Origin: Crocinitomicaceae bacterium
Lineage (GTDB): Bacteria; Bacteroidota; Bacteroidia; Flavobacteriales_D; Crocinitomicaceae
NCBI GenBank assembly: GCA_030833845.1
Contig: JAURGK010000002.1
Coordinates: 91,273-155,272, forward strand
DNA length: 64,000 nt
Direction: 5' to 3'
Below the pieces are notes generated by a model, which searched no databases, was not told the DNA's origin, and saw only the letters and a program-made list of their open reading frames with translations. This document shows, one piece after another, positions 42,561 to 45,042 of this stretch. How positions within the stretch are numbered: position 1 is the first letter of the stretch; every line of letters starts with the position of its first letter. The position numbers and the translations under genes are program-made.

Positions 42561-42648
42561 GGAGAGGTGTCCGAGTGGTTGAAGGAGCACGCCTGGAAAG
42601 TGTGTATAGGCCTAAAGCTTATCGAGGGTTCGAATCCCTCTCTCTCCG
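42561..42648 (+). tRNA. tRNA-Ser(GGA)
   Basis: GGAGAGG acceptor pairs with TCTCTCC-G; anticodon loop CTGGAAA; long variable arm; T arm GAGGG-TTCGAAT-CCCTC. Confidence 0.95.
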
Positions 42649-42660
42649 CTGAAAACAAAT

Positions 42661-42694: not shown

Positions 42695-42806
42695 AAGGCA
42701 GATGTATTTTCAAATGATCTTAAGGTGGGCCCAAAAAAGAAATCTTATATGAGTATGAATATCAATTCTGAAAAACCCAACTTAACATCAATTTCTTTCA
42801 GATAAA

Positions 42807-42854
42807 TTTGTTAAAATGTAAAGTATACATTACATTTGTAAAATAAACTTTACA
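42807..42854 (+). promoter_or_regulatory. promoter plus twin operators of membrane protein/XRE operon
   Basis: TTTG (42807-42810)-N20-TACATTTG (42831-42838); palindromes TGTAAAGTATACATTACA (42817-42834) and TGTAAAATAAACTTTACA (42837-42854). Confidence 0.8.
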
Positions 42855-42856
42855 TT

Positions 42857-43264
42857 ATGAGCAATAATAAATTTACTTTAAAACAGAAATCCAATTTGAA
42901 AATCCTAGCTTATTGGACCTTAGCCTGGACATCATCGCAAGCATTGGTTACCTTTGGAAGCAAGCTGATTTGGCCTGAATCTAAAGTAATTATTATTCTT
43001 TCAATCCTTTTGAATATAGGATTAGGCATTGGCCTCATTTTAGCAAACAGGAAGTATTTAGTTGATGGAGATGAACTAGAAAAGAAGATTGCGATAGAGT
43101 CTATGTCTCTAGCACTTGGCTTAAGTATTGTGGTAGGTTTGGCCTACTCTTCTGCAGATCAAGCTAACCTAATTCCCTTTCATGCTGAAATTTCGCATCT
43201 AGTCATTTTCACTGGAATAAGTATTTTAGTATCAATAGGAATTTGCAGAAAGAAATATTTATGA
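42857..43264 (+). CDS. hypothetical membrane protein paired with XRE regulator
   Basis: Four TM segments with DELEKKIAIESMSLALG motif; 4-nt overlap with the following HTH gene. Confidence 0.75.
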   Translation: MSNNKFTLKQKSNLKILAYWTLAWTSSQALVTFGSKLIWPESKVIIILSILLNIGLGIGLILANRKYLVDGDELEKKIAIESMSLALGLSIVVGLAYSSADQANLIPFHAEISHLVIFTGISILVSIGICRKKYL

Positions 43265-43455
43265 AAAATATTATCAGAGAGATTCGAATGGAAAAAGGAC
43301 TACGGCAAGAGGATCTTGGGGAGCAAATTGGAGTAAGTCGGCAAACAATAAATGCCATTGAAAAAGGGAAATTTGATCCTAGTTTGTCTACTGCTTTTAA
43401 GCTATCTAGGACGCTCGAGTTAAAAATTGAAGACATATTTCAATTTGATGAATAG
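43261..43455 (+). CDS. XRE-family helix-turn-helix transcriptional regulator
   Basis: IREIRMEKGLRQEDLGEQIGVSRQTINAIEKGKFDPSLSTAFKLSRTLELKIEDIFQFDE. Confidence 0.93.
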   Translation: MKNIIREIRMEKGLRQEDLGEQIGVSRQTINAIEKGKFDPSLSTAFKLSRTLELKIEDIFQFDE

Positions 43456-43515
43456 GCCAAATATATATGCCATTTGAATGCAAATTCCATAAAACGATAC
43501 AATTAATAACGCGAA

Positions 43516-44082
43516 ATGACAAAGAATCAGAAGTTTATTATTACCATTACTTGGGTACTCCTCTCAAGAATTTATGATGCCTATTGCACCTATATGCTTA
43601 CCCCAGACTTAAGCAAGGAAGCCAACCCCCTAGTCTCTTTTGGTGGTATTTCTTCATGGACAACATTAATTGTCATATTGAGTCTTCTGACTATCTATAC
43701 ACTGTATGCTTACTATGTCAGTTTGTATAAACCCATGAACTTAATACCAAAAGAAGAAGGGTATTCGTTCGGCGATTTTGTAGCTTTTGTGTATTTGGGA
43801 CAAAAAGATAGCTGGACCTCAGTACTTTATAAATTCCCAAGAAGCTTTAAAAGAGCAACCCATTATTTCGGACATGTACTTAGCAAGGGCCTTGTGTTTG
43901 CCGGGGTGGTTTCCTCTATCATGTGGTTATTAATCAACAATACTGAGTTTTATAAATCAATACACAGCGCTGCATTGATTTACGCCATATTGATATGCGG
44001 CACCTTGATCATTGTGTATCGTTGGAATAAAAAGCTCTACAAGCAATATCTTGTTGGTAATAGAAACAATTCAAATAACTGA
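43516..44082 (+). CDS. hypothetical membrane protein
   Basis: 188-aa ORF with several TM segments. Confidence 0.6.
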   Translation: MTKNQKFIITITWVLLSRIYDAYCTYMLTPDLSKEANPLVSFGGISSWTTLIVILSLLTIYTLYAYYVSLYKPMNLIPKEEGYSFGDFVAFVYLGQKDSWTSVLYKFPRSFKRATHYFGHVLSKGLVFAGVVSSIMWLLINNTEFYKSIHSAALIYAILICGTLIIVYRWNKKLYKQYLVGNRNNSNN

Positions 44083-44151
44083 GTTTTATAAAGCAGGGCG
44101 TAATCAACTAAGTTGTGGGATGCTGTTTCTTTACGGGCATGTTCCTGTTGT

Positions 44152-44451
44152 CTATGAAATACTGATGCTAGGGTTGGAATCACTGTAATATAAAATCAAT
44201 TCAAAGGGTGCTTCAAGTGGAATCATCCAATGCGCTGCTCCGGGTGGAATATGGCACCACTCCCCTTTTTGAACCTTTACTTTTTGGTCGTCAATCACTA
44301 TGGTGCCGATTCCGGCCGTTACATAGCAGTTTTCCCATGTTTGATGGGTGTGTGCACGGCCCTCACGTTCAAAAATCAAATGCTCCCAAAGGATTTTCCC
44401 GTGTTCATCTTTAATAGTGAGCATAGACCCAAAGGAAGTAGATTTTCTCAT
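44152..44451 (-). CDS. cupin domain-containing protein
   Basis: HTHQTWENCYVTAGIGTIVIDDQKVKVQKGEWCHIPPGAAHWM. Confidence 0.82.
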   Translation of the reverse strand: MRKSTSFGSMLTIKDEHGKILWEHLIFEREGRAHTHQTWENCYVTAGIGTIVIDDQKVKVQKGEWCHIPPGAAHWMIPLEAPFELILYYSDSNPSISIS

Positions 44452-44457
44452 TATAAA

Positions 44458-45042
44458 TTATTTGACTAGTTTCTCATTCAAGACCTTGCACAACCATGCA
44501 CTTCCAGCTCCTATAATGGCTCCCGCCAATACATCTGTGGGGTAATGCACCCCTAAATGCATTCTTGAATAAGCAGCTGCGCTGGCCCAAACATAAGCTG
44601 GGGCAATTACATACCATTTTGGAAAAGCTATGCTTAATGAAGTTGCTGTTGCAAAAGCTTCAGAGGTATGCCCCGATGGGAATGACGGGCTGCCTGCGGC
44701 TGAGAGTTTTTGAATATCCGGATAGGTCACAAAAGGGCGATCCCGATCAATGGTATACTTTAAGGTTGTAGTAATAAGGGCAGAGCTCAATAGGGTTGCT
44801 CCAATATAATACCCCTTGTTTTTTAGGGTTTGGTCATGTTCAATGAGTCCAATTGAAGTGACTAGTAAAGGGGTTCCAATACCAAGAGGCCCCACCGAAT
44901 TTGTAATCAATTTAAAGGTTGGGTCTAGGGCTGTATTACGCTCCAGATTGATTTTTCGCAGCAGGTCGATATCAAAATTTTGTGCAAAAACAGCACTGCT
45001 TAATACTAGAATATATACAAGAGTAATAACTGCTTTTTTCAT
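44458..45042 (-). CDS. PAP2 superfamily phosphatase
   Basis: KYTIDRDRP, PSFPSGHTSEAFA, SRMHLGVHYPTDVLAGAIIG. Confidence 0.92.
   Translation of the reverse strand: MKKAVITLVYILVLSSAVFAQNFDIDLLRKINLERNTALDPTFKLITNSVGPLGIGTPLLVTSIGLIEHDQTLKNKGYYIGATLLSSALITTTLKYTIDRDRPFVTYPDIQKLSAAGSPSFPSGHTSEAFATATSLSIAFPKWYVIAPAYVWASAAAYSRMHLGVHYPTDVLAGAIIGAGSAWLCKVLNEKLVK

Follow-up and report, generated by a model that had tools for sequence, protein, structure and literature searches.

Two palindromes stand in front of a short operon in the window, i.e., the whole 64,000-nucleotide stretch of DNA from a Crocinitomicaceae bacterium that was analysed here. The operon consists of a gene for a small membrane protein followed by one for a small XRE-type regulator (Table 1). 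This locus raises the question of which protein binds the palindromes, and what the resulting circuit governs. The observations as a whole are best explained by autorepression: quite probably, the XRE protein represses its own operon through both palindromes, with the membrane protein as both the product and the input of the circuit. This reading is backed, at the level of sequence, by the identity of the sites, their conservation, their exclusivity and their co-variation with the regulator.

Table 1. Features of the locus (positions counted from the first letter of the window)
Feature	Position	Strand	Basis or remark
tRNA-Ser(GGA), flanking gene, outside the regulatory unit	42561..42649	+	ARAGORN
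Cassette shared with the sister genome	42765..43454	+	blastn block q265-954 vs L068 5906-6595
-33 element TTTG	42807..42810	+	sequence; TTG-N20-TAnnTTTG in window and sister
Operator 1 (predicted), TGTAAAGTATACATTACA	42817..42834	.	19.7 bits, matrix from gammaproteobacterial sites; 0/300 shuffles
-7 element TACATTTG (Bacteroidota TAnnTTTG)	42831..42838	+	sequence; same element in L006, L026, L029
Operator 2 (predicted), TGTAAAATAAACTTTACA	42837..42854	.	19.5 bits; 0/300 shuffles
Membrane protein, 135 aa, four predicted helices	42857..43264	+	DE[LM]xx[KR]I loop conserved between helices 2 and 3
XRE/Cro-type regulator, 64 aa, CylR2-like	43261..43455	+	HTH_3 7e-18; CylR2 1.6e-11; 9k3w 1.2e-17

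Paired palindromes interleaved with a promoter

The palindromes lie exactly where the initial annotation had placed them, and their starts are 20 bp apart as it had claimed. Its description of the arms stood in part: TGTAA and TTACA are present, but they fall short as a definition of the full site, the consensus over the relatives being the longer WGTMAAG-YWWR-CTTKACW. Within the 64-kb window, TGTAA-N8-TTACA occurs solely at these two sites, even with one mismatch; 0.17 exact copies per 64 kb would be expected in random sequence of the same dinucleotide make-up, and Markov sequence would yield a pair with the same arms 18–60 bp apart 0.017 times per 64 kb, against one observed. A search of the genome (2.14 Mb), which had been suggested earlier, returned only the two sites of the window within three mismatches of TGTAAAGTAAACTTTACA. 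The sister genome carries operator 2 unchanged. A relative with three sites (L026) had suggested a further, degenerate operator at the -33 box of the window, but this was rejected: the best candidate (42796–42813) reaches 12/18, with neighbouring positions equally good.

The promoter elements, the 20-nucleotide spacer between them and the start codon at 42857 are all as previously described. Operator 1 fills the spacer and runs 4 bp into the -7 box, taking up its first half, and operator 2 covers the expected transcription start and ends 2 nt before the ATG. In the sister genome, the -33 element is kept as TTG rather than TTTG. The proposed interleaving of promoter and operators agrees with the sequence and with the arrangement in relatives, in which the upstream site (site A) contains the -33/-35 box and the downstream one (site B) closely follows the -7/-10 box. 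In most of them, the upstream site supplies the -33/-35 box through its right arm (cTTGACA), and the downstream site starts right behind the -7/-10 box; across most loci, both boxes abut or overlap the sites. Relative to most of these, the site pair of the window lineage is shifted, such that one site takes up the spacer plus one half of the -7 box and the other the start, and in L026 all three positions are occupied in 20-bp steps.

The sites are spaced 20–21 bp apart in 15 loci and 40–42 bp apart in 16 (about two and four helical turns), with 21 bp (13 loci) and 42 bp (12 loci) as the commonest single values, and the clustering has a Rayleigh p of ~1e-3. Strict helical phasing is partly supported by this; a minority of relatives have spacings of 26–28, 36–38 and 43–49 bp, which are at odds with strictly face-to-face cooperative binding. 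Geometry and spacings together fit a predicted steric repression, and the cooperative binding at both sites that had been proposed earlier appears plausible, while not being required by the geometry.

The two encoded proteins

Searches of Pfam and NCBIfam found no family for the membrane protein, PADLOC gave no match to it, and ten divergent partner proteins from other pairs had none above the cut-off in Pfam and NCBIfam. Two divergent partners came near DUF2178 (PF09946) below the threshold (E 0.015 and 0.037); like the window protein, members of this family are predicted to be small membrane proteins and carry a charged loop, but the window protein itself has no match there. The AlphaFold model has four long helices at residues 8–37, 43–70, 73–102 and 112–134 (pLDDT 75.8, pTM 0.60), of which the last three are at membrane level in a hydropathy scan and the first is less hydrophobic. 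Positive residues gather at both ends of the chain and in the helix 2–3 loop, a pattern that would fit a cytoplasmic position of the termini and of this loop. A structure search of the PDB with the model returned no match (best E 0.93) and gives no function from the fold. The literature yielded nothing relevant on the gene pair, on DUF2178 or on 9k3w, the PDB entry "Transcriptional regulator, PbsX family", which among solved structures is closest in sequence to the XRE protein (E 1.2e-17).

The XRE protein itself is 64 residues long when counted from the ATG at 43261, and not 65 as first annotated; its start overlaps the stop of the membrane gene (ATGA). In phmmer, the Enterococcus faecalis regulator CylR2 matches it over residues 3–62 (1.6e-11). 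Pfam and NCBIfam place no ligand domain in it.

The same unit and the same sites in two phyla

Within the family, 5 of 200 genomes encode a relative of the membrane protein; the phylum yields 18 of 396 and the gammaproteobacterial class of one such relative (L013) 8 of 274, with further ones in Colwellia, Cognaticolwellia and Lacimicrobium records. The gene order, membrane protein and then XRE, is kept in both Bacteroidota and Gammaproteobacteria: among the properly oriented strong matches, the XRE gene comes directly after the membrane gene and WGTMAAG-YWWR-CTTKACW stands twice upstream (three times in L026). Conservation of the palindromes upstream of orthologous pairs, on which the initial annotation had staked its interpretation, is thus found across both phyla. 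The Colwellia polaris site TGTAAAGTATACATTAC, for example, agrees with site 1 of the window over 17 bases, at just 43% identity between the membrane proteins. To avoid circularity, a weight matrix was built from seven gammaproteobacterial promoters alone and scored on 25 other loci; in 22 of these, one of them the window, even the second-best site outscored all 300 dinucleotide shuffles. The matrix places two sites ahead of almost all Bacteroidota copies of the pair. The exceptions among the 25 loci are L034, which is weak, and L063 and L064, whose sites lie upstream of the scanned stretch. Since the same unit with the same sites recurs in distantly related bacteria, the two genes very probably constitute a real self-regulating membrane module, as far as can be read from sequence.

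The module is present in one copy per genome, and the neighbourhoods compared share no conserved third gene. Some loci depart from the common form. L063 and L064 are GC-rich gammaproteobacterial homologues with N-terminally longer membrane proteins, in which AT-rich twin operators are kept 43 bp apart. At L009 and L010 (G177:C191:606214-606566), a frame change and several stop codons disrupt the membrane gene, while the XRE gene has stayed open. At L035 / L091, partly degraded tandem XRE copies alternate with several small membrane-protein ORFs behind one perfect operator, which looks like a local amplification of the module.

Recognition helix and operator

The question of which protein reads the palindromes was approached by comparing 80 other small XRE genes from the phylum. 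The motif lies upstream of 30 of the 33 genes whose proteins carry an SRQ[T/S] recognition helix, compared with 5 of 32 for TRQT proteins (Fisher p = 4e-10) and 0 of 15 for those with other helices. Conversely, TGTAAC-N6-TTTACA stands in front of 20/32 TRQT genes and 0/33 SRQ[T/S] genes (p = 8e-9), Fisher values that overstate independence, as the loci are phylogenetically related and the TRQT ones mostly belong to one group. Three SRQT loci (L124, L128 and L142) have no motif above 13 bits. In operons that begin with the XRE gene, the operators stand in front of that gene. Many of the loci L105-L151 (e.g., L108 and L120) are TRQT XRE/membrane pairs with a different twin operator, TGTAACATATTTTTTACA plus CGTAAAG..., the two sites of which start 21 bp from each other, roughly 60 and 38 bp ahead of the first gene.

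Because helix and operator exchange together, the evidence points to the XRE protein as almost certainly the binder. It would be very surprising if the palindromes instead served another regulator, e.g., one of the CRP/FNR family, with the XRE protein as a bystander. Sites of that family also carry TGTnA-type arms, and the outer arms here do look like its half-sites; yet the genome has two sites only, both at this promoter, and the motif tracks XRE pairs across two phyla and changes together with their recognition helix. The earlier proposal that the palindromes are own-operon operators of the XRE protein is strongly supported by cross-phylum conservation, confinement to the promoter and co-variation with the helix, and such operators they very probably are.

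A single predicted target promoter

In the 22 pair-bearing genomes, the motif at one mismatch gives 41 hits, 30 at the promoter of the pair and 11 elsewhere, a split tallied by hand from the list; a reversed-pattern control over the same genomes gives 28 hits, against these 11 outside the pair promoter. No separate target operon emerged, with operators beyond the own promoter absent from the window's genome and none above background in the 21 others. The regulon detected for the XRE protein would then be its own operon alone. As no other gene in the genome has an operator, the circuit would be closed; and with the operon as the regulator's sole target, its output must be the level of the membrane protein, together with that of the repressor.

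Two readings of such a circuit can be distinguished. In plain homeostasis, the XRE protein would repress the operon, with the membrane protein as a mere effector kept low, active in transport, tolerance or the envelope and taking no part in sensing. This is possible, if on balance doubtful: the membrane protein as necessary output, the overlap of the two genes and an XRE protein without a ligand domain all speak for it, but CylR2-like regulators are repeatedly paired with small charged-loop membrane proteins, across many families and whichever gene comes first, and this recurrent pairing suggests a working contact between the partners.

Under the preferred reading, that of autorepression with the membrane protein as both product and input, dimers of the XRE protein would occupy both palindromes ahead of their own operon. 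Protein at site 1 would keep RNA polymerase off the spacer and one half of the -7 box, and protein at site 2 off the start, such that the operon represses itself. The membrane protein would most likely be the product held in check and also the input: upon a membrane signal, it might contact the XRE protein at the membrane and relieve repression, as has been proposed for CylR1/CylR2. We infer here that the XRE protein binds, that it represses the operon instead of activating it, that it acts cooperatively, that the two proteins touch and that there is a signal; the idea of the initial annotation that the membrane partner senses this signal is a guess.

A probable patchily inherited chromosomal cassette

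The 690-bp cassette shared with the sister genome holds the promoter, both operators and both genes; it is 88% identical between the two, with unrelated flanks, and the membrane proteins are 90% identical. In the sister, the pair sits behind a different tRNA-Ser, with anticodon TGA. Proximity to a tRNA was rejected as a general rule, any tRNA being present in the fetched stretch of just 2 of 24 other loci; the adjacency holds for the window and its sister only. Two same-genus genomes (L182 and L186) lack about 1.8 kb of the window (42714–44488) that holds the cupin gene and a 188-aa membrane ORF as well as the pair; in both, a PAP2-like (phosphatase-like) gene stands almost directly after the tRNA-Ser, 1.8 kb closer than in the window. 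This arrangement is an empty site. A further locus, L187, has the cupin gene without the pair.

A search of 72,556 plasmids with two queries and one of 50,697 phages with one query returned no match. The shared block with unrelated flanks, the empty site, the lack of a conserved third gene and the lack of a plasmid or phage match make the module look like a patchily inherited chromosomal cassette rather than a plasmid- or phage-borne addiction module. These results bear on a toxin–antitoxin-like interpretation, in which the membrane protein would be the toxin and the XRE protein the antitoxin and autorepressor acting at paired palindromes. Such systems are called to mind by the overlapping genes, the XRE-type regulator, the paired palindromes and the patchy chromosomal distribution, as well as by the one genome with a broken membrane gene beside an intact XRE gene. 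Nevertheless, this interpretation is improbable given the absence from plasmids and phages, the single copy per genome, a membrane protein without a Pfam, NCBIfam or PADLOC match and hence of no known toxin family, and the dissimilarity of a four-helix 135-aa protein to known type II toxins.

Beside tRNA-Ser genes, genomes of the same genus carry a repeated element, GGATGAGAACCC...GGTTCGACCCGACGACC...GGAGAGCACGC..., the end of which nearly duplicates the 3' end of tRNA-Ser (about 2880-2965 in L187, about 2880-2960 in L184 and about 5490-5580 in L068, the sister locus); it was not found in the window.

Comparison with known systems

Small XRE dimers on paired palindromes over their own promoter are also found in the C proteins of restriction-modification systems (e.g., C.AhdI) and in phage repressors of the Cro/CI type. 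Both groups are sequence relatives of the XRE protein of the window, but differ in setting: no restriction-modification or phage genes are conserved beside the pair.

Pairs like that of the window can tentatively be seen as instances of a widespread, unnamed type of membrane-signalling module without a phosphorelay, in which a small XRE protein and a small membrane protein act on their own promoter only and the regulator follows a readable recognition code. If this were true, an SRQT helix would specify GTAAAG half-sites and a TRQT helix GTAAC half-sites, and the membrane protein would be sensor and output in one. The co-variation of operator and helix offers a first binding code for this large class of unannotated regulators, and the membrane protein belongs to a family new to Pfam and NCBIfam. 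The unit described here is a minimal chromosomal module, extending from Bacteroidota to Gammaproteobacteria, with a single predicted target promoter; this last feature makes control of the repressor by its membrane partner testable in one reporter strain.

The closest known system and best working analogue is CylR1/CylR2 of Enterococcus faecalis, in which the means by which CylR1 controls the 66-aa repressor CylR2 has been described in the literature as unknown. CylR2 is likewise a small Cro-type regulator, and is the closest well-studied relative with a solved structure. In both cases, the regulator is encoded with a small predicted membrane protein, there is no phosphorelay, and the regulator acts at a promoter site, here as predicted from the sequence. 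The parallel is drawn from the homology of the regulators and from the pairing. The membrane proteins differ in helix number, CylR1 being reported with three predicted membrane helices and the window protein having four predicted ones. The two systems also diverge in their targets: CylR2 controls a divergent operon, that of the cytolysin genes, whereas here the operator stands solely at the regulator's own operon.
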